This document shows, in pieces, positions 18,355-48,122 of a DNA stretch of 64,000 nt; within the stretch, counting starts at the first letter, position 1, and every line of letters starts with the position of its first letter. Source of the stretch: Aotearoamyces nothofagi. Taxonomy: Eukaryota; Ascomycota; Leotiomycetes; Leotiales; Tympanidaceae. Under the pieces are notes generated by a model. That model made no database searches and was not told where the DNA came from. It worked only from the letters and a program-made list of their open reading frames with translations. The position numbers and the translations under genes were made by a program. The DNA lies in NCBI GenBank assembly GCA_015345905.1, contig JADDTR010000009.1, forward strand, positions 372,001 to 436,000. The letters run 5' to 3'.

Positions 18355-18611
18355 GGTCTTCTGATATCTGTTGCCAACAAAGTCCTGCGTCATACCGAGC
18401 ACCTCTATACCCTTTTGCCTGTTTTTTGGAACAGAACGTCTGAAAAATCGAAGATCAGGTACCTATGCCGAACCTATAAGCTGCACATATACAGAACTCA
18501 CAATGATGTAGTTCGGCGTGGAGCACAACGAGACATCCAGGATTGCCGTATCAAGCCGTAGTGACAGATCCGATTACCAGTCATTAGAGAGGGTCAAACC
18601 CTGACTTTAAC

Positions 18612-19172
18612 ATGTCCAGCACCACTCTGACGATCGCAGTACAGCCCCCGACTGCGGCTCGCCTGGGTACTGTCCTCTATCCTCCTCTCGCCGTTAAAGT
18701 TAGAACACAGATAGTAACCAACGGGAGCGACACCCTTTCTGAAGATCTTAGTCGGAACTGGGCCTTTGTTACATTGCTTAATGATAGCGGAGAGGTGGTG
18801 CCAAATGCTCTAGGGGGCGATCTTGTCGATTCGGCTCATGCTCTTACGAACGGGGAGTCTCTCACCAGCCTTGTTGATGGTTACTTCCTCTTCAGGAACT
18901 TGGCTATTCAAAACGTGGGCCGTTACAAAATAAGAGTTACTTTGATGCGTATGGATGCACCAACAGTTAGCAATGGAATTGCAACTGTGAATGCTGCTGG
19001 AGTTTCTAGCGTCGAGCAGGTCGAAAGCCGTTTCATAAATGTCGATGACTGTCAAGTCTTACCACGCGGTCCAAGTAATGTCCCATCCCCTACCGTCGAA
19101 TATCGTCCTGCTAACAGTATTGCTACAGGCACTGAAGAACAAACCTTCCTTAATTCATTACCGGACCATTAA
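18612..19172 (+). CDS. Small velvet-family protein
   Basis: A single uninterrupted frame of 186 residues. The N-terminus has the velvet-domain opening, LTIAVQPPTAARLG followed by YPPLAVKVR. A variable stretch follows, then the second hallmark GYFLFRNLAIQNVGRYKIRV (about residues 90-110), matching the Y-x-F-x-x-L-x-I...G-x-Y/R-x-R-x pattern of VeA, VelB and VosA. Velvet proteins are NF-kB-fold DNA-binding regulators that couple development and secondary metabolism. This copy is compact: it lacks the long CG..DRR.IDPPP insert of canonical members and has only about 50 residues after the core, with no clear nuclear-localisation cluster. It resembles the short, divergent velvet paralogs of some ascomycetes. 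It has no obvious operon-like partner. The start is the first ATG of the frame. The family call is from motifs and the function is inferred. Confidence 0.8.
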   Translation: MSSTTLTIAVQPPTAARLGTVLYPPLAVKVRTQIVTNGSDTLSEDLSRNWAFVTLLNDSGEVVPNALGGDLVDSAHALTNGESLTSLVDGYFLFRNLAIQNVGRYKIRVTLMRMDAPTVSNGIATVNAAGVSSVEQVESRFINVDDCQVLPRGPSNVPSPTVEYRPANSIATGTEEQTFLNSLPDH

Positions 19173-23134: not shown

Positions 23135-24709
23135 ATGATGGCCCACCCTCAAGAAGCTCGAGTAGGACTACTATCAGACTTCAGCGATGATGCACCCTTA
23201 ACAACACCTGCAGCAGAAAACGAAAAGCAAAACTATCCTTCTCAAGAACTCGCCTTTACACTGTCGTGCATGCGGAGCTTCCTTTCTTCGTTTTTGATTA
23301 CGTTGGTTCCCAGCTTCTTGCGCAGACCGGCGTATGCATCTACATCTAAGAAACTTCACCCAACGGCCTATCTTGACGGCCTCAGGGGTACGGCAGCATT
23401 CATCGTTTTCATACACCACTCTATCATTGACTGGTATCCGGCTCTCAGCCATGGCTATAGAAGTGGGAGCGTCGAGACGACGTCCTATATTCTGCAGATT
23501 CCCATTGTACGCATCATATACTCTGGACGAGGCATGGTTTCAATATTCTTCATAATATCAGGTTATGTTTTGAGCTATAAAGCTCTGCGGTTGATGCGTG
23601 CTGGTCAATACTCATCTCTGCTTGACTCGTTGGCCTCTTCGACTTTTCGACGAAGCATACGCCTTTTTCTTCCCATCACGATATCAACCTTCATCTCCTT
23701 CATCATGTGTCGACTTGACTGGTACATCCAGGATCCTCTTAGACGAAACATCATTCCACCCCGCACTAATAGCTTCTATACGCAGCTCCATGACTGGTGG
23801 CTTCATACCCTCTATATGACGAACCCGTTCAACAACGTTGATGGCGTACAACTTTACTCACCTCCCTACGATGGGCATCTCTGGACCATACCTCTCGAGT
23901 ATCATGGCTCTTTCATTGTCTTTATAACACTACTTTGCGTGTCGAAGATTAAGCCTTCGCTCAGACTACTCTTTCTGGCCGTAGTTGTCTGGTACACGAT
24001 GTGGATGGGCCGCTGGGAAATATTTTTGTTTCTTTCCGGCACTCTGTTCTGCGAGCTGCAGTTCACCCGTGCTGCATACCTCGAACCTTCTAACCAGCTC
24101 CCATCAGCAACCAGCCTCCCCTCCCCGGACACTTTTGAGCACTCACCAGCGGTCTCCTCACGGATCCCAACAATGTCCAAATCCCGGGCGGCTTTACTGC
24201 TCCAGATCACCACAATTGCAGCCTTCATTCTCTCGCTCCACATCCTCTGTTTCCCGGACGAAGACGCCGCAACCTCGCCAGGTTACCTAACCATGATTCA
24301 CTGGACGCCAGGGGGCCTCCACAATTTAATACAACGTTTCTGGCTGGCCATCGGAGCCTTCCTGCTCGTGCTCTCGATGAACTTCTCGCCGTTCCTACAG
24401 AGCATCTTCAACATGCCGTTCCCGCAATACCTAGGCAAAATTTCCTATGCGCTATATATCGTACATGGCCCGGTTCTGTATACGTTAGGAATGAAGATGC
24501 TCGGACCAGCATTCCATGGCCTTGAAGTGGCTGCCGCGGCGGGAACGCCGGATGCCCCCCGTGGGGCTTATTTTACGAGCTTCGTGTTTGCAGTCGTAGT
24601 GAATACGGTGGTGTGCTTCTGGGCAGCGGACCTCTTCTGGAGGGAGGTAGATGTGAGGAGTGTAGCTTTGGCTGGCTTGGTAGCGAAGAAGTGTTGGGTT
24701 AAGGAGTGA
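23135..24709 (+). CDS. Acyltransferase-3 family integral membrane protein (OafA/YrhL-like)
   Basis: A single-exon gene of 524 residues. After an N-terminal cytosolic stretch of about 70 residues comes the family signature YLDGLRGTAAFIVFIHHSI (about residues 78-96), with the His pair that serves the acyl transfer. Then follows SGRGMVSIFFIISGYVLSY and a series of hydrophobic spans up to KISYALYIVHGPVLYTLG near the C-terminus. This arrangement of about ten membrane spans is that of acyltransferase-3 proteins, which move acetyl or other acyl groups onto sugars, polysaccharides or metabolites across a membrane. Fungal substrates are mostly unknown. Downstream genes encode sugar-activating and nucleotide-sugar-transport functions, so a glycan O-acylation role is possible but inferred. 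ATG codons at 23135 and 23138 are equivalent choices. No break is seen. Confidence 0.9.
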   Translation: MMAHPQEARVGLLSDFSDDAPLTTPAAENEKQNYPSQELAFTLSCMRSFLSSFLITLVPSFLRRPAYASTSKKLHPTAYLDGLRGTAAFIVFIHHSIIDWYPALSHGYRSGSVETTSYILQIPIVRIIYSGRGMVSIFFIISGYVLSYKALRLMRAGQYSSLLDSLASSTFRRSIRLFLPITISTFISFIMCRLDWYIQDPLRRNIIPPRTNSFYTQLHDWWLHTLYMTNPFNNVDGVQLYSPPYDGHLWTIPLEYHGSFIVFITLLCVSKIKPSLRLLFLAVVVWYTMWMGRWEIFLFLSGTLFCELQFTRAAYLEPSNQLPSATSLPSPDTFEHSPAVSSRIPTMSKSRAALLLQITTIAAFILSLHILCFPDEDAATSPGYLTMIHWTPGGLHNLIQRFWLAIGAFLLVLSMNFSPFLQSIFNMPFPQYLGKISYALYIVHGPVLYTLGMKMLGPAFHGLEVAAAAGTPDAPRGAYFTSFVFAVVVNTVVCFWAADLFWREVDVRSVALAGLVAKKCWVKE

Positions 24710-25058
24710 AGTTACTGAAGTGTGAGAGAAATGTCTCAAGGTATTTTATTACGATATTACTGGGGATATTGGACGTATGTTTTATTTATCATTTTGACTG
24801 GCAGGGAGGAGTTAGCATTTTCAGAGTTTAGCATCTTGTAGCTGTATTTAATGTGATTTAATGCTTTATAACGCCCTATATTACAAATTAAAGAGGTTTT
24901 AGTCCAGTTGTGATCAATGGAAACCTTCTGTAGGCCCATTTGGGTATTTTGTACTTGCTGATAAATATACTAGGGCTGAATCATCCTATAACAGCCCATA
25001 TTCCGTGCTCATATCATACATCTTGTACATAATTGTGAGGTCGAAATAGCGCTGTCCA
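24710..25058. other. Convergent intergenic stretch
   Basis: This 350-nt AT-rich stretch lies between two convergent genes and should hold both 3' ends. No gene or structured RNA was seen. Confidence 0.5.
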
Positions 25059-25680
25059 TCATGGCGTCCTTGTCTTAAGCTGCACCCCATGCCATCCCTT
25101 GATCTCCTCGCCTAATATTTTGTTGACCAATCTCTGCTGCTTCAACATTGACAGCCCTTTGAATTTATTGCTTACGATCTCAATCCCGTACATCGAACCG
25201 CAGCCGCCGGAGATATCTTGGACCTGCAGAACAGCGGAGTTAGCACTTTCTCTAGAACCCGAGCCAAAGATGAGGAACGTATACCTCTAGTTTCACAGGC
25301 GAGAGCTCGGAGCTCAGTTTATTGTAGATCCCAAGCTCTGCCTCATTCAAGTGTTCCGGTGCCATCAGCATCTCCTCGGTCCGAGACGACTCGGATTCCA
25401 CACCTTCTGCGCCTGCGCCAATCATGCCCTGTATCGTGCTTTCATTGGTCCTGCCCCAGGTTGATACTGAAAATGATCGATGTGCATTGCTTTGAGTAAT
25501 AAATGAGTGTGAAGGTCGGGTTAGGCGTAAAGATAATATCCGCGAGGTGGTAGAAAGCTGTCGTATGCGAAAAGGCGCTGAAGGTGTGCAATGCCTATAG
25601 CTCAATCGTGGAGAGATTTTAGCAACGAGAATATATCTCTCAAATGCCCTTGTTGTTGGACGTATTATTGCTGTCGCCAT
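25059..25680 (-). CDS. BOL3: Mitochondrial BolA-like protein (BOL3/AIM1 family)
   Basis: Two exons on the minus strand, 25680-25285 and 25223-25059, separated by a 61-nt intron (GTATAC..CTGCAG), give 186 residues. The first 75 or so residues are rich in Arg and Ser and poor in acid, as expected for a mitochondrial presequence. The BolA domain fills the C-terminal half: an N-terminal helix region (LNEAELGIYNKLSSEL), then SGGCGSMYGIEIVS with Cys140, and IKGWHGVQLKT with His178. The Cys in the loop and the C-terminal His are the [2Fe-2S] ligand positions of the BOLA3/Bol3 type. With glutaredoxin 5 and Nfu1, these proteins deliver Fe-S clusters to lipoate synthase and succinate dehydrogenase. The start is the only ATG giving a targeting sequence. 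This is a housekeeping gene embedded among sugar-related genes. Confidence 0.94.
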
Positions 25681-26800
25681 TGAGTGAATCAGTCGCTCTT
25701 TGCGAGTCCCCGGGGGCTCTTGTGGAATGCACTTTCTTTTCTGGACGTTAGGTTCAGCAATGTACGCAGTGGAATAAACCAGTGCGCAAGCCTTCCTCTC
25801 CGTACTCAGATATATACTGAAGAAGCTTGTGAGTTCAGCAATCTATCAATCTCCCAAATCTACGGCGTCATAAAAACATCCCGCTGTTGGACCTCCGCCA
25901 TCCGCCATCCGCCCCGCCGAAACGCTGCGCCCGGGGATCCGCTCCGCTCACACTTCCAGCCACAACACCGATTCTATTTCCAAGCAAGACCACCTCAGGC
26001 AGGTATCATGGCATGCCGTTTTGGCCAAGCAGGAATCTGCGCTCCAATAAACAAACATGACCTCTACTAGAATTGACAGCAGACTTCTCATCATATCCAA
26101 TGGCTTAGGCATTTTTCGCGGCTTGAGACATGCGCGTCTCGTCTGGTGGGATACATATGTACCTCCGCACAAATACTTGTATTTGACGCGTCTATTCTGT
26201 GTAACAATTACCTTACTTGGATGTCCGGAGGCATTCAGCTTCTAAAAGACAGAGCACAATATGTCTTACATACATCTCGGCCTCCTTGCCTTCTATTCAA
26301 GAATCTTGGTCCGAGGACTCTGTGGTCCCTGTGGAATTTTCTGGGATAAAATGCAGTTTAATGGCCTACACCAATCGAACAAATCTCTTTACATATTTGA
26401 GCGTTATCTCTAGGGATCGTTTCAATCATTTCAACCATTTAATGGCCAGATACTCTGATGCATGTAAGGGCCATTTTGACGCGTCTGAGTATAGCGACCA
26501 TTTTCTACAAGTGACGAGTCAGCTATACGACCCCACATCATGCCAGGGATGGATAAATGCTCACCTCAGTCTTCTACTGTTGCATTGTGCTGAAATATGA
26601 TGATCTTTCCTATGTCAGCCTCAGTATTTCTTGAAGGACGGTTCCAAAGGGGTGCTGCAATGTTCTGGACCAGTCGTATCGTCCCTCAGTTTCATGTTTG
26701 GAATGCCCTACACCGAGTGGCTCTATTATACTCAGACACGCAATTCGCTATCCCATTATTAACCTGACTATTCTCTGAATCTGCTTTCTACCAAGAAATC
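25681..26800. other. Intergenic stretch, 1.1 kb, no gene seen
   Basis: Several overlapping short frames of 60-128 codons on both strands show no shared motif, signal peptide or splice logic. The 25680 end is the BOL3 promoter and the 26800 end the promoter of the transporter fusion. Confidence 0.5.
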
Positions 26801-29585
26801 ATGCGTCCACTTGGGTTCCAACGACTATCCTGGCTAGCAGGGCCGCGAAGTGCTCCGTACTTTGCGGCCTTGGGCCTCATCGCCATACAAGTCAGCATAG
26901 GTATCATTATGAAGGCATCCCAGACCGCTGGTGGGCAATATGCTTTTTCGGTGTCTGCTTCAGTTACCATATCGGAGTTTCTCAAGACGCTACTGTCTAC
27001 TCTCTTCTTCTACCGTGAATGTCGAAAACGAGGAACGAATGCATTTCATGTTGCCCTACCGTCTTCAGAACGTTCCTCTGCAGAAATTGACAGTCTTACT
27101 GAAGAAAGAGGCACTTCGAATCCCCCTTCATCGAATTCTAGCGGTGTTATATACCAAGAGAAACCGCGATCTCTTGAACAGCATCTTGGCTGGCGGTCTT
27201 TTTTGTCTTTTTGTATAAAAGAGGTCTCCGTGGATACGAGATATGGGTTTGCGCAACTTTCTCTCCTTTACGCACTAATTAATAATACGGTAAGGACAGA
27301 CTCTTCTATATTTGAATTGAAGATGACTTACACTGCTCCAAATAGATTTTCGTGTCGTATAAACTTGCAGATCCAGGGACTATCGTACTTACAAGATCTG
27401 GGGTAACACTTATCACCGCAGTCGTAATGATGGCTACACTTGGCACGAGACTCTCCAGGATTCAATGGCTGGCAATAATTGTACAGGTATGATGATCAAG
27501 CTATGACTGTCATTACATATCTTTTAACATCAAAGTCAGATCATGGGACTGGTTGTCACGCAATATCGGCCAGATACAGGGAGCTCCTACCCGATCTCTA
27601 CATATATGATCCTTATGTTTCAGGTGTTTTTGACTGCACTTGCTGGCGTCTATAATCAAGCTTTGTTGAAACGCGAGGACGCCTCCCTTCACGCAGAGAA
27701 CGCGATTCTCTATGCTTCAGGTGTTGTCATAAACCTCACACTTCATGTCACCATCAGCATCCTTAAAGTCGACGAGCCTTCTTTCTTTACTGGCTTCAAC
27801 AGCATTGGTGCTGTCTTGGTAATCACCAGTAATGTCTGCATTGGACTTGCCATTACAGCTGTTTATAGGTGTCAGTAACCATTCCTAGATTTCCCTAGCA
27901 CAGATCCTTTGGCTTAGAGATATATTTATAGCTGACTATATTTAGACGCCGATGCGGTGGTAAAGTGTCTGGCAACGGCCTTATCGACAGGCATCCTATT
28001 ATACGTATCTCCTATCTTTTTTGGGACGGATCTTAGCTTCTTAGTTCTTCCTGGTACGGTGGTTGTGTTGATATCGTCATGGTTATACATGGAGGCAGCT
28101 ATACCCACCCTTGCAGCTCCGCCGAAAGATGATTGCAACACTGGTAATTCTGGTGACGGATCATTGTTGGCCAAGATATTAGCAGCATCGAAGGTATGCT
28201 ATCCCAATCTTTTAACACCGTCTATGATGGAAGATGGGAGTCTAAGCTAACATTTCCCCCCAAAGAAACGGCAAAACTCTGTTCTTGCAATTGCGGCGAC
28301 GTTAACTATCATTATTGTGACATTTCTGGAAATGTCTCGCTCGTCAATGCCTGATCAAATTTATTCGGACAAAATTCCAATTCACGACGAGCAGATTGAC
28401 GCCGCTCCTCCAGTTTCTCAATCTGAAGTATTCGAGTCACCTTTTAAGAATACATTAGGCTTTGTTCGTTGGAATAGTGAGCACCCCGAACGCATGCCAC
28501 TGATTCAAAAATATGCGCCATTCTTTCACGACATGCATTTTAGCATGCCTCACTATATCAAGGACCCACTCCTTGGACCGCTCTATCATAATATTACTCA
28601 TGATTCTTGGGAAAATGGTTTGACTATATATTTAGCAGTGGCGAACAGTATGCAACTTATCCTTGATGCTAGCCCACATATGCCCGAATCCAACATCACC
28701 GGCGTGCTATATTACCACTTCGATACGTGGGTCGACCCACTGGACTTTACCGGAGAAAACTTCAAAAATATCTGGCTTCCTGATATTCGAGACGAAGGTA
28801 GTCGTGGTCCAATTTTCGAATGCATGACCGATCGAGGAAAGTACCCGACATGGTGGCCCTTCTTCCCGGGAACGAACTGGCAAGGGCCGGCACTCGCATC
28901 GGCACGGGCAGTCGCAGCCTTCGAGCTCGATTACGTCGTCAACCCAGAAGAATGGTGTGTTGGCTGGATGGATTTCTACTACATCCCAAGACAGTTCTTT
29001 TCGGATTTCATTTTCCTAAGTCAAATATACGCCGGATATGAAACATTCCAAGAAATCGCGATACCAAGTATAATGCATATCATCGATCAGACCCGCCGAC
29101 GGAACCCAAAAAGATCAGTCCTTTCCCGATTCGGGGACTGCTGGGGTAGCTGCTGTGAGGTGAATGATGGACCGGACCTACACGACCTATTTTTCCATCG
29201 CTGTGGACACAAACTCAACTATATGGCCCCCAACCAGTCTGTTAATGATGCTCACTACGACCGTCTTGACCGAGACGCCAAATTGCTTGGAGAGCCAATT
29301 CCGAAATCACAGTGGGTAATGAAAGAAGACAATGCCACGGCATTCGGTAAGTTTAGTGCCACTGAACTTGCTGTCCTCGGTGGTACTGTTAGGGTTGACT
29401 CTGATGTACCTGATGCATCTGTGGATGCTGAGGATGGAATTTCAGTTGAGGAAATTGAGGTAACTCAGAGCGAGGTGGATGAGGCAGCGGCAGAGATGGA
29501 TCGATTGGCAGCTGAAATGCTGTCCAACTTGGGCAAAACGGATGAGGAAAATGTAGAGTTGGATCCTAGCGAAAGCATAGAGTGA
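26801..29585 (+). CDS. Nucleotide-sugar transporter fused to a large C-terminal lumenal-type domain
   Basis: Five exons (26801-27289, 27346-27486, 27540-27870, 27946-28193, 28266-29585) give 842 residues. Residues 1 to about 400 form an SLC35A-type Golgi nucleotide-sugar transporter: SAPYFAALGLIAIQVSIGII, the spans VLTRSGVTLITAVVMM and LAIIVQIMGLVVTQYRP, and the diagnostic YADAVVKCLATALSTG before the last spans. A further span (about 407-426) leads into about 415 extra residues with HPERMPLIQKYAPFFHDMHF, YYHFDTWVDPLDF, a WWPFFPGTNW patch, a Cys-rich FGDCWGSCCEV and an acidic tail. I do not recognise that domain. The aromatic and acidic patches and its place after a final membrane span suggest a lumenal enzyme, perhaps a glycosyltransferase. 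The fusion is supported by the last junction (28193/28266): same phase, GTATGC..AAAG ends and no stop. Ordinary transporters of this family are about 320-420 residues. Confidence 0.88.
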
Positions 29586-30434
29586 TAGTGAGACAGGATA
29601 CTCAATATTAATATCATATCAACTCAGAAGGCGATTGCATGCTCCATTTACTCTGGGACTTTTGGATAATCGCCTTGAAGCCAAAACAGTTGGTGCCTGA
29701 CAGTGCCTGAAGTATTCCCCAAGCAATCATCGTAAATCCTCATTCACTCAGCTAATCTAGGATATAAATACCGCTGATGCTTCCTTGGCTTCACCTGTTC
29801 ATGTACAACATAGCATCGCAGATCATATCTGCAAAATGCCTGCTTGTTCTGCGTTGGAACAGTAGCACTCTATTTATATCTCTCTTTCTAGCTGGAGGAA
29901 GCAGGAATTATAGTAAATATAATTCTACCGTCAATCAAGCTCTTGCCGCCATCTTCGATGCTGTTGTCATCACTCCCACCTGTCACCATTAAACTCTCTG
30001 TCGCACTGCACTATACTGTACTGTGCATTCTATCGCGTAGACTCTGTATTCCCTAGCGAACAATCCGGGGTCCCCAGTATGTGCGGTTGTTATTTTTCCA
30101 GGTAGTTAATTTAGAAAGAAAGCAAGGCTGGATAATTAGTATTTGCTTTTTAAGCTTATACAGAGCCAGATAAATAATAAGATAGAAAACATATTTCAAC
30201 ATGTTAATAATAATGATAGAGTACTAAGCATATATTATCCTTAAACTTTAGATGAATATTTAATATTAAATAACTATTTCTTTTTTCAATTCATGTTGAG
30301 CCAACGAAAGGCATAATCCAACATTGGCGGACATAAAATTGCTCCTGGTTGCTATCAAATCTCCAAGGCCCATGATACCGAAAATTCCAATAAAGCTAAC
30401 AGGTGCTCGAAGAAACCGGCTCCCAAAAAGCCCC
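29586..30434. other. Convergent intergenic stretch with AT-rich patch
   Basis: The 850 nt between two convergent genes hold an AT-rich patch at about 30110-30300 (runs of AATATTAAAT type) that stands out from its surroundings. A TATAAATA-like element occurs near 29763 in front of a 71-codon frame without recognisable features. No gene is claimed. Confidence 0.5.
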
Positions 30435-32970
30435 TTAATGACTAGCTACAGCTGTCTGTTCCAACATCTGTGCATTTAAGCTCTCATCCTCCTCGAATGA
30501 ATACCAGCTTCCTTTCCTCAACACGCTAGGCACCCACTCCGTCAACCTCCTCATATCCATCCACTCGCTCCACGAACCCATCGACTCTGACCTCACTCTA
30601 TCCTTACCAGCATGCGCCGCCCACGCCATCTCACTGCCCCAATCCTCAAACTCGCTAACCTTGGCGCCGAAGAACAGATGGCCATCACACACAAGCTGCC
30701 AAAGCACGTCTTGAACCTTGAGGTTGCCTCGCGGACCAGCGTGTCCGAGCTCACTGGAGGCTAGATCGGCGCTTTCGATGCTTCCGCGCAACTTTGCTGC
30801 GGCAGCGAGGAACTCAGATGCAGACTCGAAGGACCACCCGCCGCAGCAGAATTGGCTCGAGACGAAAGATCCGTAGGCGATATTGCTGATGATGTTGTCG
30901 TAGCTGAACGAGACGTACGACTTCTTCGTGGCATCGATGAGATCTGGCCGGTGATGGTGATTTGGCGAATCCTCGTCCTTGACGATCGATAAATAGGTGA
31001 GGTAGTTTCCTATATCGATGACGTGCGAGAAGTCGTTATTTGCATCCTTGATGAAGACGGGGCCAGATATGTTGAGATCATTGATCACAGTGGTGACTGT
31101 CTGCACTGCATCCCTTGTTGAGTGGCCGATGTAGTAGAACCGGAGCATGCTTCGCTTTGCCTTTGGGAGAACATCGAAAAGCCGTTCGAATATTTGGGTG
31201 CTGCCGCAATGTTGGCCAACAAGGCTTTTGCTAACTGCGATTACGATGGAGGAGGCATGTTGGACATCTAGACTGAAGATGCAATCGACGATTAATGGGT
31301 TACCGCTTGACTAGGATGCTTTATTTAGTAGGGGCGCGTCCATTCGTGGAATCAACTTACGTTAATTGCAAGCAACTTGATCCGTCCATTAAAAGATGGA
31401 TCTCCGAGGTCCCTTGCCAATGCTGGCACGATGACTGTAGTCAAATCTCTCGTGGTCGGTTCCGTCATCAATACCATATCGAGGCTACCGTCGACATCCC
31501 TTCCCCTGAAACTCTTTTCTGGCAGGGCAGTCTTATCTGTTGAGCAGTCCAATTGCAGGTCATTGCATATTCTTTGCATTCCGTTCATGACGCAGGCTCT
31601 CTCAGTTGGCGTCGTCATATACGGTAGAATCCTCGCAAGACAGAAGAATTCAAAAATCGGAAGCACGTCCCAGAATGAATATCTGTAATACGCAGCGTAT
31701 ATGCGGTCATAGAAGAAGCCGAGAGTAGTGACGGCACGAGCAACGCTGCGATCCGGGACTTGCACTTGCGTAAGGAACCAATGGTGGCGGCAGTCCTGAA
31801 GAAGTTTGGCGATATCCTGAAGCGGTGACTCCTGGCAGGGATTAGTCCAATTTGGCAGCCATTGAAAGCGTATAGGATAGATTATGGGAGTAGCAACTCA
31901 CGAGAAAAGAATCTAGGAAGTCAAAGACACAGAGTTCTCGGTGCACAGGGTCAACGAGCATATTTTGAAAAGTGAGATCCCCATGACAGCTTCCGACAGG
32001 CACTTGTATATCAGGCTGAGCTTTGAAATGTTCCATTATCTGATCAATCTGCTGAGTGATGATCTCGATGCTTTGATTCCCTAGGAAAGCCGACTGCGGA
32101 AGAGCCTTCTTGATGCTTTTGGCCTTTGCTTCGAATTCGGGCAACGCATCCTTGAGGGACATCGTGGTGCTCTGGTTCAATTCGTAGTCTACCACCGAAA
32201 TAGCACTCTCGATCAGCCATTCATGCATTACCTTGTCATGCTCCATCATGATGTGAAAAACATCGTGGAATGGGATATATTCCATATCGACAACGATATC
32301 ATTCCCAGTTTCTCCAGCCTTCGGCACCCGAAGTCCGTATATTTCTGGAGTGCTAATGGTAGCATTCATCGAGTTCTTGCGGCAGATGGCAGAAAAGATA
32401 ATCTGCTTTCGGATCTGCTTGGTCAACCTTGAGCCGTCTTGTTTTCCTCCCGCAAATGCTGTCTTCCGAACGGCCCATAGATTCGATGTCAGCCGTCGGA
32501 TGGTGGCATCGTTGACATACTGGCATGGTGAACTGCATTGTAATTTCCGGTTTACCAGCGTCTCGGATATGATGCGGCGAGGGAGGCCTGGTCTGCGTAG
32601 AGTCTTTTGGATCTGTGCGGCGCGGGAGCTGGTGAGGGAGAGAAGTTTCTCATATGATGGGTCTAGTGATGGAGATCTTGCATCAGCGAGCACCTGCTGC
32701 ATTTCTGCAACATCAACCGCTACAAAAGTCAACACTGGAAAAATGATAAAGATAGCTCAATGACCCACCAGATTTTTCATCAAAAAGGACGTCCAGTGGT
32801 ACCCGATTTTCACAGCTAGTAATACTGACAATCTCTACTGTGCAATCTGATTTACCGACACCCTTGAGCTTAGGGCGGTGAGATTCGGCGAGACTGGTGT
32901 TTCTTTGATGGGAAGAACGATTAACGGTCTGGCTGCGAGTATGGTCATCTCGACCGGCCGACGGAGACAT
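30435..32970 (-). CDS. Kinase (APH/choline-kinase fold) fused to a nucleotidyltransferase-like domain
   Basis: Four exons on the minus strand (32970-32769, 32719-31902, 31831-31361, 31310-30435) give 788 residues. The middle of the protein carries the phosphotransferase loop CHGDLTFQNMLVDP (H313, G, D, then N320) and the metal-binding VFDFLDS about 20 residues on, as in aminoglycoside and choline kinases. The part from about 474 to the end aligns by eye with the nucleotidyltransferase domain of the divergent neighbour at 33666: FIKDANNDF against FIKDCDNSF, CCGGWSFESA against CVGGYSFASA, and EFEDWGSEMAW against RYEDWGTLAAW. Its N-terminal nucleotide-binding loop lacks the GxxxRF pattern and one metal Asp is Asn, so it may have lost or changed activity. 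Bacterial LicA/LicC-like pathways pair a small-molecule kinase with a nucleotidyltransferase. The substrate is unknown. The start is the first ATG of the frame. Intron 3 (50 nt) uses the TAG at 31311, which keeps phase. Confidence 0.8.
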
Positions 32971-33665
32971 GATTGATTCCGTATACCGAAAGCCAAAGCA
33001 AGCAGGCAAGCTAAATAATTACAGAAAAGACCGGAGTGGCTTTGACTACCAAACCCTTCAGTGCTCAAGGGCAACGCTGAAGCCTCAGGAGCCTGTATTC
33101 AGGATACCGCTGCTATCGTAAAACGGGTTCCTAGAATCTCCGCAAAGGGAAGAATGCTAGCACCATTTCGAGCCGTTGAGACAGACGTAGCAGCATCTCA
33201 ATTCACCTCCAAAAAACAATAAACAACCATGTGCCCCTTACATTGTATCACCGTTTACTGTAGCGATGGTGACAATGTCTCACTAACCCCTCGGAAAATG
33301 AAGCACATATTTAGCGAATAGACGCAGCCGCTACAAGTCAAAACATATCATTTCTAAATGTCTCTTGGAAGCTGTATTATACTAATATTCGACTCCTTGT
33401 CCGCTACCATTCCGGTAACATCATTGATGTGACCGCGTGCATATTTGAGCGGTCAAGGGTTAAACGGAGGGAAAGGGGAAGCGTCGTTCCCGTCCCTCGC
33501 AGCTATGATATCTACTTAGCACCTATTGGCCTCAGATGTTACATCTAGATGGTAGTTGAAAGAGCCGTGGAAAATCTTAGAAGACCCCTTCGATGAGAAT
33601 CATTCTACAGTAGCGTTTCTTATTTAGGCAGCCCTCTAATCTCAAATCCTGGAGTATCATTCACG
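32971..33665. promoter_or_regulatory. Shared divergent promoter region of the two nucleotidyltransferase-domain genes
   Basis: The 695 nt separate the two divergent starts (32970 minus, 33666 plus), so both 5' regions lie here. A head-to-head arrangement of genes with related domains suggests co-regulation, but no operator motif could be assigned with confidence. Confidence 0.5.
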
Positions 33666-35435
33666 ATGCCGCATGGTCTGATGTCTGCCTTTTATACCTT
33701 CCCCAGACATCGAGAGAACCTCGAGTTCTTCACAACATGCAGCATCGAGGAGCTGAAATGGTTTGTCGAAGCAATGGCGGCACATTTCGAGTCACTCGCA
33801 GCGACTCCAGATCTCGCGTTCGAGAGGTTCGCAGACAATCTAGGGAACCTCGACATCGACCGGCAGAACCGCGTTATTCGTTTCCCGACTCCGGTTTCCC
33901 CTGAGGACCTGAAGGATGCATGCGAGATCGATCTCGTTTCTGACGCGCTGGAGCGCTTCGTCATGACTTCCCATCCGCTCCATTTTGACAGCTGGAATGA
34001 TCACGACTATCCGGTGAGGTCTAGGCGTATTCGATGCAGGAACACGATCAAAGTCGCGACGGGACTTCTGGTTGAAGCATTGATGGGTCTGGAGACGACT
34101 CCACTGGTGCAAGAGTGGGCTCGGAAGATCAAAGAGGGCCGCTGGGAGATGGCAGAAGATTATCGGACGGGGTCAACCAGCCTTCGGTTGGCAAGGCGAA
34201 ATAGTCCGCTCGACCTGTATATACCGGTCAGCCAGAGCATAATACTGCCCGAGAAGTCGCTGCCCGAAACGGCGTTGTTCACACGGGAGCCAGTTGCAAA
34301 GCAGAGCATAGAGACCAATATTATACCGGCCTCGGAGCAGGTCACGCTCATTCTTCCCTGTGCTGGCCGCTCCTCTCGATTCCCAGGCCACAAGCCCAAG
34401 TGGCTTCTCACGCAGCCCAGCGGACGGCTCATGATCATAGAGGCGATCCTTGACCTCGACTTCAGCCATGTCAGACGTGTTGTCGTCGGCGTTCTTCGCG
34501 AACATCTCGACCGATACTGCGGCGGAAGTCCCGATGCTCTCTTAGCCACATTTGGCCACGACCTCCTGTCCACCATACCGGTTGACCTCGTAGTCATCGA
34601 GTCCTCGACGGTCGACCAGGCCCAGACCATCGAGTGCATCCTCGCTTCCAGCAAGACCACGGGGCCGATCTTCATCAAGGACTGCGACAACTCGTTCGCC
34701 TGCGCGGTCCGCGCCTGCAACGGCGTGGCGTCGCTGCAGATCACGCCCGAGATGCAGAGCGTCTCCGTGCCGGCCTCGAAGTCCTACATCACGGCGTCGG
34801 CAGCCGGCCGCGTCAACAACATCGTCGAGAAGGCGGTGCTGGGCGACACGTTCTGCGTCGGCGGCTACTCCTTCGCGTCGGCGGGCGCCCTCCTGCGCAG
34901 CGTCAGGGCGTGCCGCGCCATGCAGGCCGACACGGCGTGCGGCGACGTCGAGCTCGCCGTCTCGGACGTCATCTGGATGAAGCTCCTGACGGCCGGCGAG
35001 GACTTCGTCGCGATCCCGGCGCGGCGGTACGAGGACTGGGGCACGCTGGCGGCCTGGCAGGCCTACGCGCGGACCTTCTCGACGCTCTTCGTCGACATCG
35101 ACGGCACGCTGTTCAGGAACGGCGGCGAGTTCTTCGCGCCCCGCTGGGGCAGCCAGCCCGCCCTCGCCGACAACGTGGCGTACCTGAGGTCGCTGCACGC
35201 GGCGGGCAGGACGCGCATCGTCCTCACCACGTCGCGCCCGGAGCCCTTCAGGGAGCGCACCGAGGCCCAGCTGCGCGAGTCGGGCGTGCCGCATCACCAC
35301 CTGCTCATGGGGATGCTGCACGCGCAGCGCATCGTGGTGAACGACTATGCGGGCACGAACCCCTTCCCCAGCGCCCGGGCGGTGAACTTGAAGAGGGATG
35401 CGGACGACTTGAGGGAGCATCTCAGAATCGGCTGA
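33666..35435 (+). CDS. Nucleotidyltransferase fused to a HAD-type phosphatase, with a novel N-terminal domain
   Basis: A single-exon gene of 589 residues. Residues 1 to about 225 form a domain I do not recognise (FFTTCSIEELKWFVEAMAAH; aromatic- and Arg-rich). A sugar-nucleotidyltransferase domain follows: LPCAGRSSRFPGHKPKWLL near 230, with the G-x-x-x-R-F and P-K residues that bind the NTP and sugar phosphate, then FIKDCDNSF near 335 with the metal-binding Asp, and RYEDWGTLAAW near 455. The C-terminus (about 473-589) opens with LFVDIDGTLF, the DxDGT nucleophile motif of HAD phosphatases, and has TTSRPEPFRE and the acidic VVNDYAGTNP. Such bacterial fusions dephosphorylate and activate sugars or polyols for capsule or LPS. 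It is divergent from the kinase fusion, from which its middle domain looks paralogous. GC content climbs steeply from about 34560 to the stop, unlike the first half. Confidence 0.85.
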   Translation: MPHGLMSAFYTFPRHRENLEFFTTCSIEELKWFVEAMAAHFESLAATPDLAFERFADNLGNLDIDRQNRVIRFPTPVSPEDLKDACEIDLVSDALERFVMTSHPLHFDSWNDHDYPVRSRRIRCRNTIKVATGLLVEALMGLETTPLVQEWARKIKEGRWEMAEDYRTGSTSLRLARRNSPLDLYIPVSQSIILPEKSLPETALFTREPVAKQSIETNIIPASEQVTLILPCAGRSSRFPGHKPKWLLTQPSGRLMIIEAILDLDFSHVRRVVVGVLREHLDRYCGGSPDALLATFGHDLLSTIPVDLVVIESSTVDQAQTIECILASSKTTGPIFIKDCDNSFACAVRACNGVASLQITPEMQSVSVPASKSYITASAAGRVNNIVEKAVLGDTFCVGGYSFASAGALLRSVRACRAMQADTACGDVELAVSDVIWMKLLTAGEDFVAIPARRYEDWGTLAAWQAYARTFSTLFVDIDGTLFRNGGEFFAPRWGSQPALADNVAYLRSLHAAGRTRIVLTTSRPEPFRERTEAQLRESGVPHHHLLMGMLHAQRIVVNDYAGTNPFPSARAVNLKRDADDLREHLRIG

Positions 35436-36925
35436 GGGGAGTGAGGCGGCTGGGATCTGGCAGGGCGAAGGGGGGGGGGTGAATGATTATTCTAGATCTT
35501 AAATGGCAATTTGCAGTATTTAGCTTCTCCACACCCATCTCATCCCATCACGCCCAGAATACCATGATCTGTATGCAACAGCAGAAGAGTAGTCGCATGT
35601 AACACTCGAAGCAGACCAATTACAGCTATAGAAATAACACATTGCAGATAGGGGTAGGCGAGTGGACCTATGCGTCCAGGCACGAGAGAGAGAGAGTGAT
35701 AACACGACGACAGAAACAATACACATCTCATCATACATAACCTGGCATGATTCGCTATCGCTTCCAAAGCCGTGAAGAAGGAAGAGGAGAGAGAAGAAGA
35801 AGAAGAAGGGGGATCTGTTGCTCGACAAGGCTCTTCAACTCCTTTGCGCTGCGGCTATACTATCACCGCCATGCCACCGCCGGCATCTCCCAGCACGGGG
35901 GAGGATATTTCCATGCCGGATTCGTCAGTCCTGCACGCACACGACACGCTCACATGGCCACTCTCCAAAGCTACGTTTCCCAGCCCTTCCTGGCGTGCCC
36001 AGCCTCCGCAAGCATGACAGCAGCAGCAGCAGCAGCAGTGATGGCGAGAGAGCGATATAGCAGATTGATTACCCCTCAGCGCACATCCATCTCGCTTGCA
36101 GGTTTCCATGTGCGACGTTGGGCGCCCGTGCTGTTGCGAGAATGTAGATATAGCCTCTTCTATACTTCCCCCAAGAGGGTCTGTGGAGATATATGGCCCC
36201 GTCAACCAGAGCTCCGATCTCACGACGCCGCCATGGGTTCCCACAGACAGCTTGCGGAAGCGAGGAGGGGTTTGGGAGCGGAGTTTAGGCAGATGAGGGA
36301 CAGTCCGTTCATCGTGCAGGCGAGGTGCTGTGAGCTGTGCTGGATACATATCGACGCGCAGGCCGGGCCGGGCCAGGCCTTTTGCGCATCTGAACCCCCG
36401 CTGCGTCTTCTCTCACAATAGCTTGGTTGCTTGCCATCTTGGCTCTGTTGCGCCATACTATCCTATCCCATGAGATCAGCCGTGACTTGTCGATGGCCCG
36501 CAATCCCCGCATCCGGCACTTTGGATAAAGTGATAAGTATCTAACTGTATGGAGGCTCACCTTCTCCGTCCTCGAGATGGCGCTGAGATATGGATGTGGC
36601 GCACGGAGCGAGCAGGCCCCTCGCCGCCTGGTGGTCCAAGGTATATATCACCGCACACTATCGCAAAGCTTCGTGATGGCGCTCCAATAGGAGGACCCAG
36701 TTGGCGGAATCGGTGGGGATCGATGGAAAATTCTCCTCCCAACCAATCCCCGTTGCCACCGCCTGTGGACGGGATTGGGGAGAGGGCGACGTCGTATTCA
36801 TATGTTCGTGCTGCAGCTACGCCACACGGCTATAGGTCCGGAGGGACAGCGGACGCTGCTAAGGAGCCCCTGTAGAGGCTGGAGCTCCTGGGTGTGGCGG
36901 AGGTGCAGTGCGGAGCTTCTTCGAG

Positions 36926-36955
36926 GCACTCACCGCACTCACCGCACTCAACTGC
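36926..36955. repeat. ACTCACCGC short tandem repeat
   Basis: About three near-perfect copies of a 9-nt unit (CACTCACCG), the last diverged. Confidence 0.7.
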
Positions 36956-39263
36956 ACTAGAGTGATGGTTCCCTTCGTCCCTTGATCACTCCCTCCTACC
37001 CGTCGACTCATCATAATGAGCACTCGGCACCACCAGCGACGCTGCAAGCAACCTCGTCACATCAGAGGCATTCCAGGGCGATGTCCGTGGGATGGATGAA
37101 GGTCTCTCGGGCCTCGCCTCGCCATCCTTCGTACGCATCTCTATATTGTCCAGGCGTAATCTCCATATTGTCCAGGCATGGGATCCCGCGGAAACGCTGC
37201 AGAGGAGGTTGAGATGGCTAAATGGCCGAGAGCGCCTGCCGTCGCACGACGCAACGGCAAGCGTATCCGAGGGAGAGAAGCGTTTGCGGGATGGAAATGA
37301 CAGGTCACATACCTGCCTGGTGCTCCCCAACGCTTTCTGAGCGGTCCTGCCATGCCGGTGTGTGCCGTGTCGCGGTACTCCTCGAGCAATGTACGGGTAC
37401 ATTTGACCGCCGTCCAGGGATCCGCGAGCAAGTCCGCAGCCAAGCAGCCAGCAGCCAGCAGTCCCGGCTCGCAGCGTGCAGCTGGCGGCTTGCAGCTCCC
37501 TCGATAACGTGCTTCTGTGTCACGTTATCCCTTCCGCGCTTCCCGAGTTTTTTTAATCCAGTCGTGCAGACGGCGTCAGCGAGGCCGTTAAAGTTGCATG
37601 GCATACGGGGAATCAGCTGCTGAGGAGGGGACCGCGGCCACATGCACCCCGCACTGGCAAGCCAGAAGAGCGTTGCATTGCATGAACCGCCAGCTGGTTT
37701 TGCACCTCGCGCCTGTCTGATTCATGCACAGGCCGAAGCTGCACCACGGCGTATCAGCTCGTCGAAGTCCTCTTCAAGCCTTTGATTTCTGTTCGCCGAT
37801 AGCCCCCTGGATGGGGCAAGGACAGGAACATGAAAAGGACCAGTCGTTTTAGAACGAGGCTACCTCAGGGCATTATAGTATAGGATGCGATGTGCCAGAA
37901 ACCTATCGCGACACTCTGTCTGGCCCTGTCGTGTGGTCTTACTGGATCTGTATTTCAGCATACTGACCGACATGCGACAGCTAGCATGGGCCTTTGATCC
38001 CCACGCGATCTCCACTGCGAGAATCGGCGAGGCTGGCGACACTCGGGGTCTGGCCTCTGCTACACAGCATACGCCACGAACAAGCCCGCGCCATGAAAAC
38101 GTTGCTGCAGATTCTCGGCCTGCTTTGGAGGGCGCACAGCGTCTTCCGCTGCTGAAGATCTTGCCCACATGGCGACGCCGTTGACCTCAGGATGACGAGC
38201 GATATGGCCCCCAAGAGTCCCCTCTCAGCCTGCAGTGCCAGGTCGGGCAGGAGAACACCCGTGCCGGGCCCGAGGGCTCTGGGGAAGGCTCTGGCAGTAT
38301 GGGTGAGACGGCCGAGCAACGCGGAATCTTGGGTGCTTCACACTCCAGACGGCACGACGGCTCGTCCCAGCCGCGCGCGACATGTCAGGCAGAGCAAGTG
38401 TATCGTTTTGAAGTCTGGAGCCGAGGAGAAGCCCGGGAGATCTGCGCTGGACCCTAAATGCGTCCGTCCGGTGTCATGTCTGCATCTGTAGCACAGCAGC
38501 CGTTGAAGCTTGACATGTAGCATATATCCTACACGGCCATCATTCAGGATACACAGAGAGGCGCTGCTGGACAGGGCCAGGAATCTGCTGCTCTTGGCAT
38601 GGGGAGGGAATAGGGGAGTGGGGAGGAGGGGAAGGGAGCGAATCCGTCACTCCTCGACGAGTCATCCTGCGCGGCCGCTGGCCCAGATCTAGATCCTGAC
38701 AGGTTATATGGCCCGGAGATGGGATCGAGATGGCTCGTTCGCGACTCCTTCTACACCGGCGTCAAGTGATCTAATCCAAAAAATTCCACCTGCAGTCGTG
38801 TCGAGTCAGTGTATGATCAGACCAGCCCAGCCGAGACGTCCGCCCCGCTGATATAGCCAGCATGTCAGAGATATAGGCCGCGCTCTGTGTTGCTGTGCTG
38901 GATGTTCACGGACGATCAGCAGGCGCCATGCCCCATCCAAACGCACAACACCAAGCGCTGATCAGGGTTGTCGATGCCGCCGTAAAAGAGAGTGTACAGG
39001 ACTGTAGGTTTCTGCCCTGTTCCGCCCTGTTCTGTTCTGCAGAAGTGAGTCCTCGCCCAGACCTGCTCGCTGCAGACCCCTACAGACCCCGCCCAGACAC
39101 CAGCCAACCTGTGCGCCCGCCGGCCCCCAGCACTGTGCGCATCGCCACACAAGAAAGAGGTAATTTGTTGGGAGCGACAGCGATGCGACGCGATGCAGCA
39201 GCACTGCCAGTCTGACAGATTAACCGCCATACCTCCACCACAACCATCTCCTCCCGCAGTCCG

Positions 39264-39289
39264 CTGCGCTGCGCTGCGCTGCGCTGCGA
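39264..39289. repeat. GCTGC pentanucleotide repeat
   Basis: Five tandem copies of a GCTGC/CTGCG unit. Confidence 0.8.
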
Positions 39290-39501
39290 CGTGACGGGAA
39301 AAGCGGGCACGGCACGCAACGCACGCTCGGCCTGTCTGGGGCGGGAACCCCCAGGTCTGTTTCGGGCGGACAGGATGGGGGCTGCTTGGGAGCTGGAAGC
39401 TGGATTCGCTGAAACTCGCAAACTGGACTTTGTATATAGATGCCGAGAGAGGAGAGAGTTGCATGCGTGCGTACATCCCGTCTACCCCGGACTCTCCTCT
39501 G

Positions 39502-39522
39502 CCCTGCCCTGCCCTGCCCTGC
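39502..39522. repeat. CCCTG pentanucleotide repeat
   Basis: About four tandem copies of CCCTG. Confidence 0.8.
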
Positions 39523-39728
39523 CCACCTTCCATTTCCATCTGCTGCTCTGCAGGATGTATATATATATTATATATAATGGTATGTATGCATTGCAGTGTA
39601 TATATACAGTATAGGTACAGGTACAAGTACAAGTACATGCACAGCATATCGCGTATGGGCACTGCTGCGACTCTACAGCTCTAGATAGATATCACCCACT
39701 ACGTACTGTACATGTCTGTCCGTCTGTC

Positions 39729-39797
39729 TGCATATCTGTATATCTGTATATCTGCATATCTGCATATCTGTATATCTGTATATCTGTATATCTGTAT
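39729..39797. repeat. TATATCTG octanucleotide repeat
   Basis: About eight tandem copies of an 8-nt unit alternating TATATCTG and CATATCTG. Frames through it give artificial Ile-Tyr-Arg-Tyr-Thr-Asp proteins on the minus strand. Confidence 0.85.
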
Positions 39798-40139
39798 ATA
39801 GATATACAGTACACCCTCCCACCAACACCAACACCCAGCCCCCCTCGCCGCCCCTCCCCCCTCCCACCTCCCCCCTCCCACCCCACACAGGACAGGAAGA
39901 GCAGCCAGCCAACAACAAACAACGAGGTCTGCGGGGAAGACCTCCTCCTCCTCCTCCTCCTCACCCACCACCCACCTCCCATCCCATCCCATCCCCGCGC
40001 ACAAGCAAGCAAGCACCCATCCCCGCCCGCGCACAAGCAAGCACGCGCGCGCGCGCGAGCGAGTAGCGGTGTGCAGGACTCTTCGCAGCAGGCCTCGACG
40101 ACCAAGGCTCTGGGAGTTACGCGGCCGCCTCTGGAGGTG

Positions 40140-40164
40140 CGTTTTTTTTTTTTTTTTTTTTTTT
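40140..40164. repeat. Poly-T tract
   Basis: A homopolymer of more than 20 T, followed shortly by T-rich and GA-rich runs. Length is prone to sequencing error. Confidence 0.8.
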
Positions 40165-40348
40165 GCGGGGTAAGGCAGGTGTGTGCTCTTTGCAGAGGGC
40201 GATTTTCTTTCTTTTTTTGGGAGAGAGAGAGAGAGGGTCTGGCCTGCCTGCCTCGCTGACTGATGCGGCTGCCCACGAGTCGGTTTGCGTGGACGCGACG
40301 GGATGGGTCTAAAGGGGGAAGGAGATGCGGTTGTTAGCGATGTGTGTG

Positions 40349-40382
40349 TATATATATGTATATGTATATGTATATGTATATG
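40349..40382. repeat. TATATG hexanucleotide repeat
   Basis: A TA run passing into about four copies of GTATAT. Confidence 0.8.
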
Positions 40383-40880
40383 AAACGACCCCCGGCTCTA
40401 ATGAACATAACGAGAGCGGCCGAAACCTTACTACATCTCCTTCCTAGCTTTACAGGTTTGGAGTCGCGGAGGTTGCAAGCGAACTTGGATTGGATTGGAT
40501 TCGACGCATATGGGAACGGCGGGCGCATTTTAGGTTCGCGGCAGCAGCAGCAGCAGCAGCAGCAGCGCGCCTCTCTGTACCGATACGTACAGCGCGTGAT
40601 GATTCGCTCGTCTCGTCGCGCAGAGAGCGTCTGGGGGATGGAGGATGGAGGATGGAGGATGGGGGGCGTCGGGGAAGGGGATCCTGCCTCTCTGCTCTCT
40701 CTGCTCTGCTCTTTTTTCTTCTTCTATATATATATATATACTTGTCGTTTCTGCGGGGAGCGGTGGCGGGGAGTCAGGGTCGGCTGGGGACATCTATCTA
40801 TCTTAGCTGCCCGAGGCGAGCAGGTCGGCTGGGGCTGGCTCCCTCCTTTTTTCGCATCTGGAAGAGGAGAGAGGAGAGAG

Positions 40881-40999
40881 GATGGGAGGGGATGCGTTTT
40901 GTCTGTCTGTTTTCTCTCTTCGGTGGCACGGCGGCGGATGAGGATGGGAGGGGATGTATTTGTCTGTCTGTTTTCTCTCTTCGGTGGCACGGCAGCGGA
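40881..40999. repeat. Tandem duplication of about 62 bp
   Basis: A unit beginning GATGGGAGGGGATG and ending TTCGGTGGCACGGC occurs twice in direct orientation, at 40881 and 40943, with a few differences. The high identity implies a fairly recent duplication. Confidence 0.85.
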
Positions 41000-41120
41000 C
41001 GTAGAAGGGAGGGAGAGAAGGGTGCAGCCGAGCTGGGGACCCTGAAGAAGGGGAGGGAAGGCTGAATAGGAAGGTCGAGGACGGTTGTGAGTGATTGGAG
41101 CTATGTATATCGGCCGGCTG

Positions 41121-41156
41121 TACTGTACTGTACTGTACTGTACTGTGCTGTGCTGT
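41121..41156. repeat. TGTAC/TGTGC pentanucleotide repeat
   Basis: About five copies of GTACT followed by GTGCT variants, made of the same TACTGTAC word that is common across this region. Confidence 0.8.
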
Positions 41157-41573
41157 AGATAGAGATAGAGATAGAGATACTATTCCGGACTACCACTGAA
41201 GCATCACGCAATCCACATCTACACAGACCGAGTCCAAGCAGCTTATCCGCAAGGACACCAGACCTGCTCCAGCCCCAGATCCTGCACAGTACAGCACATC
41301 CAGCAACAACGCGCCGTCCGCATCTCCTCCTCTCTGATGGATGGATGGATGGCAGTCCCCGCCGCCGCTTGCGTTGGCACTCGCCATGCACCCCTCACCC
41401 TCACCCCACCCCATCCCGTGATGTCGCGAGTTTTAAGGTTTTTTTTTGGGGGGGGGGGGGCCTGGGGACGGACTTGGCTGCGCGCGAGGAGATGCCGGCC
41501 GGCCTGCTGCGCGCGGCTTGTGGGAGCCGAGGAGGGGGGAGAAGGGGAGATGGCGAGCTCGGGGTTGAGAGAG

Positions 41574-41613
<40 letters not shown>

Positions 41614-43277: not shown

Positions 43278-43317
43278 GACTCGACCACTCGACCACTCGA
43301 CCACTCGACCACTCGAG
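43278..43317. repeat. CTCGACCA decamer repeat
   Basis: Four tandem copies of a 10-nt unit (CGACCACTCG) near 43278. Confidence 0.85.
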
Positions 43318-47723: not shown

Positions 47724-47796
47724 TTTACAGTATGCGTGTACTGTATGTGTGTACTGTATGTGTGGACTGTATGCACTGTATGTACTGTATGTATGC
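47724..47796. repeat. TACTGTATG(TG) repeat
   Basis: About six imperfect copies of a 9-13-nt unit built on ACTGTATG, in the GC-rich desert. Confidence 0.8.
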
Positions 47797-48122
47797 AGCT
47801 GCGGCCCCGGCGAATGTGCCAGATCAGGGCCTGGCGCAGCCTGTCCGGGCAAGCTGATCGATGGCCATCTCATCTGCGTCGAGGGTGTCGGTTGTCGAGG
47901 GCGTCAATGGGGTCGACGGGGTCGATGGGGCCAGGGCGGTCGAGGCTGGCAGTGGGCAGGAGCCTGGCGCGGCCAGCAGTGGCTTGGGTGCTTGGCTCAA
48001 GACGGTCCAGGCTGCCCGCAAGGCGCAGGGCAGGGATGCCGCCCGGGTGTCTGTGTACGTCTGTGTACGTCTGTGTGTGTACTGTACTGGACAGGCGAGC
48101 GGTCGGTGTACGGTGTAGCAGT

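Follow-up and report, generated by a model that had tools for sequence, protein, structure and literature searches.

Two divergently transcribed genes of the fungus Aotearoamyces nothofagi appear to be a fungal version of a cytosolic module, present in viruses and bacteria, that would yield a sugar activated with a nucleoside diphosphate (NDP), a reading to which we assign a probability of roughly 0.6. The genes lie in a stretch of 64,000 nucleotides, referred to throughout as the window (GenBank assembly GCA_015345905.1, contig JADDTR010000009.1, positions 372,001 to 436,000 of the forward strand), and all coordinates are those of the window. The minus-strand gene, K, encodes a kinase fused to a nucleotidyltransferase (NT) domain, and the plus-strand gene, H, encodes an NT fused to a HAD phosphatase. 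An original prediction, made from the letters of the window, had placed K and H together with a transporter and an acyltransferase in a pathway that would make, move, transfer and acylate an unusual activated sugar or polyol. Homology of K and H supports the first of these verbs, while the other three rest on linkage.

A kinase and NT-HAD module in viruses and bacteria

Both fungal proteins are homologous to one uncurated module in which a kinase gene is found directly upstream of a gene for an NT-HAD fusion. In Marine virus AG-345-E15, whose gene pair has the domain content of K and H, the kinase gene overlaps a 352-residue NT-HAD gene by 41 bp. A search with a two-row alignment as query yielded 228 relatives from viral contigs, the best 80 of which we retained, along with 9 loci from bacterial genomes: Geminocystis, a Sphingobacteriaceae metagenome-assembled genome (MAG) from a lichen sample, Paenibacillus, Halieaceae, Pelagibacteraceae, Xaviernesmea, Rhizobium, Marinobacter and a 'Rhodopirellula' MAG contig. 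The last of these (L086, 4.4 kb) carries an NT-HAD that differs from that of Marinobacter (L092) at one of 358 positions and is perhaps mis-binned.

The collection comprises 92 loci, 82 of which have an NT-HAD frame 300 residues or more in length; 49 are left once near-duplicates are removed. A kinase, recognized by a kinase profile and ending within 130 bp, is located immediately upstream of the NT-HAD gene in 76 of the 82 full-length loci and in 44 of the 49 dereplicated ones, with gaps that range from -116 to +33 bp and are mostly between -41 and -4 (43 dereplicated loci measured). The five exceptions are L084 and L088, where the kinase is elsewhere within 4 kb, L086, which begins at a contig edge, and L067 and L068, which have none. 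Draws of additional genomes gave nine new loci, all with the kinase upstream as judged by coordinates, and recovered the seeds at six further loci. Few of these genomes have the module (3/339, 1/398, 2/395, 2/398, 5/247 and 2/151 at E ≤ 1e-40, seeds included), and no one-gene fusion of kinase, NT and HAD was seen among the genome-draw matches, the longest open frame being 504 residues. Of 50,697 named phage records, one matches the NT-HAD across 80% or more of its length, and four have any match. Searches of plasmids with tblastn returned nothing for whole H (E ≤ 0.01), for a loop-less NT of the type described below (E ≤ 1e-3) or for the Marinobacter NT-HAD (E ≤ 1e-5); the HAD domain alone gave 45 records, with the 20 listed all at E 0.7 or worse, and a single-sequence scan of viral contigs with the HAD found no relative. 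No curated family spans the whole NT-HAD, matches to NCBIfam falling below cut-offs, and when five NT-HAD proteins were run against Pfam only that of viral locus L004 passed, for a HAD family and by 0.5 bit. L063 and L065 have two NTs per cluster, the second (loop GEGSRF..PKPL) being encoded just upstream of the kinase, and L063 to L066 have a separate HAD-type neighbor in common.

The fungal pair provides what defines this module, namely an NT with an intact loop fused to a DxDGT HAD (H) and an adjacent, although divergent, APH-type kinase of the same subfamily (K). A likeness to sugar activation for bacterial capsules and lipopolysaccharide, which had been proposed for these genes, is thus borne out and can be narrowed to a single kinase and NT-HAD module, which in the neighborhoods scanned lies amid glycan genes.

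Conservation in H and loss in K

The NT-HAD part of H is 41% identical to a Marinobacter protein over 359 columns (1e-92), and its HAD domain is 50% identical to that of Marine virus AG-345-E15 over 98% of the query (5e-33, tblastn against phage records). Counted against 32 relatives, with H excluded and near-invariance set at 90%, the NT of H retains 14/14 invariant and 34/36 near-invariant columns and its HAD 10/10 and 20/21. A structural model of H predicted with an alignment is poor over approximately residues 1-215 and mostly confident over the NT-HAD, with ten-residue blocks mostly at 88-97 and dips to 66-82. All 50 matches listed by Foldseek for the NT are nucleotidyltransferases, nearly all for sugars (best PDB entry 4evw, 2.4e-11), with inositol-1-phosphate cytidylyltransferases among them too; the NT-HAD family profile likewise matches 4evw (3.5e-15). 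Third-position GC content rises to 0.90-1.00 in an abrupt island (Table 1), as compared to 0.58-0.72 in the 5' part of H and 0.44-0.58 in the remaining genes or frames of the window for which it was determined; past the stop codon the GC content drops. We looked for a phylogenetic break at this island and saw none, as identity to relatives has no one-way shift across H.

The kinase of K is 30% identical to a Paenibacillus kinase (1.7e-25), aligns with the kinase set at an hhalign probability of 99.9, and retains 12/12 invariant columns, including HGD, N and D, along with 35 of the 42 columns conserved at 85% among 60 kinases. A K exon piece scores 22.3 bits against PF01636 (APH; cut-off 23.2), and the five bacterial kinases scanned score 33.5 to 43.5 bits. 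The NT of K is paralogous to that of H (26% identity, 2e-25). It keeps only 6/14 invariant and 19/36 near-invariant columns (the same 6/14 had emerged from an earlier count that included H among 33 rows), with A233, G234, R238, D341 and E388 (H numbering) among the residues replaced, and K has no HAD. To judge from these substitutions, the NT domain of K is probably inactive. Since K has a kinase with an apparently dead NT and no HAD, and H an NT and a HAD, the two proteins together amount to one intact kinase, one NT and one HAD.

The domain assignments of the original prediction can be considered in this light. Its kinase loop is present in K as CHGDLTFQN and DFLD, and its DxDGT phosphatase loop in H as DIDGT. 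The nucleotidyltransferase loop is intact in H (GRSSRFPGHKPKW), whereas in the NT of K the residues that this loop has in an active NT are missing, so that of the proposed kinase-nucleotidyltransferase fusion the kinase half stands and the other is probably without activity. The nucleotidyltransferase-HAD fusion was correctly recognized, and H has in addition an N-terminal region of ∼220 residues. Comparison of the domains by profile and structure prediction, which had been suggested as a check, does place kinase, NT and HAD in bacterial and viral families, with the proviso that the NT of K has lost invariant residues.

Origin of the pair and recurrence of a loop-less NT

The NT domains of K and H group together in both of the trees that were calculated, with support of 89/75 in one that included three long-branched viral rows (L074, L075 and L078) and 94/86 in one from which these were left out. 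Within the N-terminal region of H a segment comprising residues 14-47 matches the kinase profile at 9.6 bits (profile positions 75-108). None of 1000 shuffles scored as high (the two runs peaked at 3.9 and 4.2), and the top score among 960 control proteins other than kinases was 8.5; a 961st control, at 53 bits, proved to be a kinase gene overlooked by the first search. Among 720 six-frame windows of the stretch the segment ranks fourth, behind three in the kinase of K and ahead of the next at 7.6. In a blastp search with the N-terminal region all 22 listed matches were kinase open reading frames, although weak (best E 0.033), and the spacing in H fits a kinase domain that ended where the NT starts. 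This kinase-like segment suggests an ancestral kinase-NT-HAD fusion that was duplicated and then decayed reciprocally, and with moderate confidence we infer that K and H arose from one such fusion, split by loss after duplication. Other observations pull against this history. The K branch is very long and support for its grouping with H is below the starred threshold; the segment is only 34 residues long, with an hhalign probability of 44.5; alignment of the remainder of the H N-terminus with the kinase is at the level of chance (z 1.2, with a shuffle scoring higher); and the kinase of K, when used as the profile, misses the segment (-2.7 bits, 621 of 1000 shuffles as high).

The same kinase is coupled to a loop-less protein of the NT family in three other loci, namely L079 (a 376-kb viral contig) and two from the genome draws, L098 (drawn around the Sphingobacteriaceae genome) and L100 (drawn around Paenibacillus). 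Their pseudo-NT partners retain 7, 8 and 9 of the 14 invariant NT columns, respectively, more than K; HAD is absent in two, and DxDGT is lost in one. Both L079 and L098 also contain a different HAD-like gene (identified in each case by sequence only), and L079 has a further NT whose loop is intact. The tree pairs L079 with L098 (100/99), groups L100 with rhizobia (95/91) and joins K to H, so that the loss would appear to have occurred about three times, the placement of K being unsure. Grouping K with the pseudo-NT of L098 alone or of L079 alone was rejected in approximately unbiased (AU) tests (p 0.010 each), and grouping it with all three was not (AU p 0.106). Recurrent loci of this kind suggest a noncatalytic partner role for the NT fold.

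Probable product and proposed route

In 20 of the 49 dereplicated loci an SDR-type gene, counted by sequence pattern, overlaps the NT-HAD gene by 4 bp. Pfam assigns Epimerase (PF01370) to that of L001, which is among the 20, and to the SDR neighbors of L088 and L095, which lie outside the count. Neighbors were scanned by family for a selection of genes, and these include WavE (L091, L092 and L029), glycosyltransferase families, a pyruvyltransferase and acyltransferase-3, some being without a match. The coupled SDR-type genes and glycan neighbors make an NDP-sugar the likeliest product.

On this basis the kinase would phosphorylate a sugar (or sugar-like phosphate), the HAD would take off a second phosphate or serve to clean up, and the NT of H would couple the sugar phosphate to a nucleotide. 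The divergent pair would most likely derive from the single fusion described above, with K having kept the kinase and a dead NT, and H the NT, the HAD and a relic of the kinase. The dead NT of K is probably a noncatalytic partner, in binding or allostery, and perhaps the same applies to the other loci that pair the kinase with a pseudo-NT. The adjacent transporter may import the NDP-sugar into the Golgi, where the domain fused to it would use it. Because phages and a few bacteria have this set of domains encoded side by side in clusters for sugar coats, production of an unusual activated sugar by the fungus is suggested, and a link of K and H to the Golgi transporter would be plausible.

Several observations weigh against this assignment. 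K is on the minus strand and H on the plus strand, so that the kinase is not directly upstream on the same strand and the pair has no operon order. The linkage of transporter and acyltransferase to K and H is known from one genome, the fungal genes that were scanned by family include no SDR, and the activities and substrate of the pair are predictions from sequence. Finally, four related viral loci (L109-L112) carry an aminotransferase-type gene with the kinase and an NT without HAD, raising the question of an amino compound. The aminotransferase-type gene overlaps the kinase gene in all four; in L109, the one that was checked by family, it belongs to aminotransferase class I/II, nearest to HisC and CobD, below cut-offs (Pfam and NCBIfam). 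Upstream in L109 there is also a NeuB-family gene, and L110 has one there to judge by its sequence.

Neighboring genes and layout of the window

All five genes of the original prediction sit where it had placed them (Table 1).

Table 1. Positions of the genes, domains and other features discussed
Feature	Position	Strand	Basis or remark
Acyltransferase-3 integral membrane protein, 524 residues	23135..24709	+	one exon; PF01757
Gene labeled BOL3 in the original prediction, first exon only; outside module	25252..25842	-	open reading frame
Nucleotide-sugar transporter with extra hydrophobic segment and C-terminal domain, 842 residues	26801..29585	+	five-exon splice model; PF04142
Transporter introns	27290-27345, 27487-27539, 27871-27945, 28194-28265	+	splice model
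Transporter last exon: hydrophobic segment (residues 408-426) and ∼400-residue C-terminal domain	28266..29585	+	hydropathy, sequons
K: APH-type kinase fused to pseudo-NT	30435..32970	-	introns 31901-31832, 31360-31311; 5' end uncertain
K kinase domain, 5' part (approximate limits), CHGDLTFQN and DFLD	31902..32570	-	similarity to Paenibacillus kinase
K pseudo-NT domain (approximate limits)	30435..31440	-	similarity to NT of H
H: N-terminal region, NT and HAD phosphatase, 589 residues	33666..35435	+	one exon
H kinase-like segment (residues 14-47), possible relic of decayed kinase	33705..33806	+	kinase profile, 9.6 bits
H NT domain (approximate limits), loop GRSSRFPGHKPKW intact	34341..35063	+	invariant columns; Foldseek
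H HAD phosphatase domain, DIDGT and ND motifs intact	35085..35435	+	similarity to Marine virus AG-345-E15
Abrupt GC island within H	34566..35435	+	third-position GC

The start of K has two options, an ATG at 32970, which would entail one more intron, or the M at 32702, and its 5' end offers numerous splice choices; domain analysis of K used the portion from MQQVL onward or one selected splice model. Tentatively, a GKSDC stretch far upstream in K aligns with the kinase glycine loop and is followed by an insertion of ∼100 residues.

The transporter matches PF04142 (E 3.3e-28, 99.2 bits, cut-off 27), and the three solved sequences that it matches in the PDB are all CMP-sialic acid transporters (7e-19 to 1.6e-14). 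Its YADAVVK motif is present, although only once the intron at 27871-27945 is spliced out, and its fusion to a large additional domain, as had been described, is confirmed. Four N-glycosylation sequons lie beyond the hydrophobic segment that follows the transporter part, a pattern compatible with a lumenal C-terminal domain, a putative transferase; the topology is unsure because a crude hydropathy count gives 9 segments in total. The extra domain has no Pfam family, its NCBIfam and PDB matches are not significant (best E 0.1 and 0.52) and its phage matches are at E 1 or worse; a single-sequence scan of viral contigs gave no relative, and a single-sequence fold prediction was of low confidence (predicted local distance difference test score 33.8). 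The 'move' step therefore has a real nucleotide-sugar transporter adjoining K, and the 'transfer' step an extra domain that exists but for which no family, fold or relative was found in these searches. The acyltransferase-3 protein matches PF01757 (E 6.3e-23, 81.8 bits, cut-off 31), so that a genuine candidate for 'acylate' is present as well, and for all three steps a role in the pathway would follow from position. The BOL3 label is unconfirmed, since the 196-residue frame at 25255-25842 (first exon only) gave no Pfam match at E ≤ 1 and a 31-residue piece of the gene only a poor, unrelated one.

Elsewhere in the window, the region downstream of H (36000-49000) is GC-rich (55-58%) with many short tandem repeats; four of the long open reading frames there had no match in Pfam. 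A HeLo domain match (56547-58580, minus strand, 29.1 bits, cut-off 23.2) is accompanied by a sub-threshold match to DUF7580. A single open frame of 2548 codons without a Pfam match occupies 5301-12947 of the plus strand, and at 10-12 kb GC skew and AT skew are both strong. A Velvet factor match slightly below cut-off is seen at 18588-19169 (plus strand), and the window also gave a CBM21 match. The HeLo, CBM21 and Velvet matches, together with the spliced genes, would be in keeping with an ascomycete.

Alternative explanations

The most serious alternative leaves K and H as proposed and takes the transporter, the acyltransferase and the BOL3-labeled gene as unrelated neighbors with no local pathway, a possibility that we rate at somewhat short of even. 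It draws on the unrelated-looking gene in between and the single genome, and on the lack of similarity of either the acyltransferase or the transporter extra domain to open reading frames of the 92 module loci. Nevertheless, a nucleotide-sugar transporter beside a nucleotide-sugar module is the expected arrangement, the viral and bacterial relatives are likewise amid glycan genes, and an acyltransferase-3 type gene is found one gene downstream in two loci of the cyanobacterial group, L084 (by Pfam) and L093 (by sequence only). The four-gene pathway as a whole is hypothetical. By contrast, activation of an amino alcohol or choline-like compound, following the logic of the LicA/LicC kinase and cytidylyltransferase, would change the substrate itself. 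The kinase is APH/choline-kinase-like and has weak matches to homoserine kinase, and the aminotransferase-type gene of the closely related L109-L112 points in the same direction. The frequent SDR-type coupling argues for a sugar instead, as do the nearest PDB relatives of the NT, which are sugar nucleotidyltransferases in spite of the inositol-1-phosphate cytidylyltransferases among the fold matches, and no LicD was found among the selected neighbors that were scanned. We therefore consider an amino alcohol unlikely, if well worth keeping in mind.

Much less probable is that the pair are functionless, decaying remnants of transferred bacterial genes. The invariant residues lost from the NT of K, an N-terminus of H that may be a decayed kinase and the odd GC island could all be read in this way, but H is open across 589 codons with every invariant NT and HAD column in place, K retains its invariant kinase columns across several exons, and loop-less NT partners recur in viral and bacterial loci. 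A nucleic-acid repair kinase-phosphatase resembling PNKP is the least credible of the alternatives. Families of polynucleotide kinase/phosphatases are indeed among the matches of the HAD (PHROG, 2.7e-8; Pnkp1, 6.4e-6 when the family profile is used; Pfam, weakly); however, the kinase is APH-like rather than a P-loop kinase, an NT domain is fused, and the genomic neighbors scanned are mostly glycan genes.

Our preferred reading thus remains that of a fungal module for an NDP-activated sugar. A bolder version, in which a module from phages or bacteria was fused and duplicated, the dead NT tethers the kinase to the NT-HAD, and coupling to an importing and transferring Golgi protein completes a eukaryotic Golgi route for a bacterial-type sugar, we regard as speculative and rather doubtful. 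In any event, a conserved, uncurated module of three activities from viral and bacterial glycan clusters has been defined and is now placed in a eukaryote, and the fungal pair offers a system for studying both the formation of pseudoenzymes and the domain-wise splitting of a multifunctional enzyme. Should the link to the transporter be true, it would hint at an unknown sugar on fungal glycans, and the question of substrate is open to direct test on two purified proteins.

Comparison with known systems

Phosphocholine activation by LicA/LicC also uses an APH-type kinase and an NT, sometimes as a LicC-LicA fusion; its substrate is choline, and it has no HAD. GMPPA/GMPPB, met here only as Foldseek matches to the NT fold, are a live NT and a paralogue with a regulatory role and so resemble the paralogous NT domains of K and H, one of which is apparently inactive, although without kinase or HAD. 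The kinases of NDP-heptose activation are of the HldE or HddA type, while that of K is APH-like, and K and H match no heptose enzyme family. The chemical logic of kinase, phosphatase and NT is nevertheless the same as in the NDP-heptose route outlined in passages of PMC11573728, which consists of isomerase, kinase, phosphatase and nucleotidyltransferase and is also reported there from viruses, archaea and some eukaryotes. Passages of PMC10918830, PMC11573728 and PMC7901785 offer parallels in CDP-6-glucitol, NDP-heptoses and fructose branches but do not describe this module. A description of the kinase and NT-HAD module itself was not found in full-text literature searches, in which broad queries were covered by their top-ranked matches. 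The closest counterpart is the kinase and NT-HAD pair of AG-345-E15, Marinobacter, Geminocystis, Rhizobium and others, which shares with the fungus the three domains, the NT-HAD fusion and the conserved catalytic residues. The fungal genes differ in being divergent and intron-bearing, in the fusion of the kinase to a second, apparently dead NT, and in the extra N-terminal region of H.

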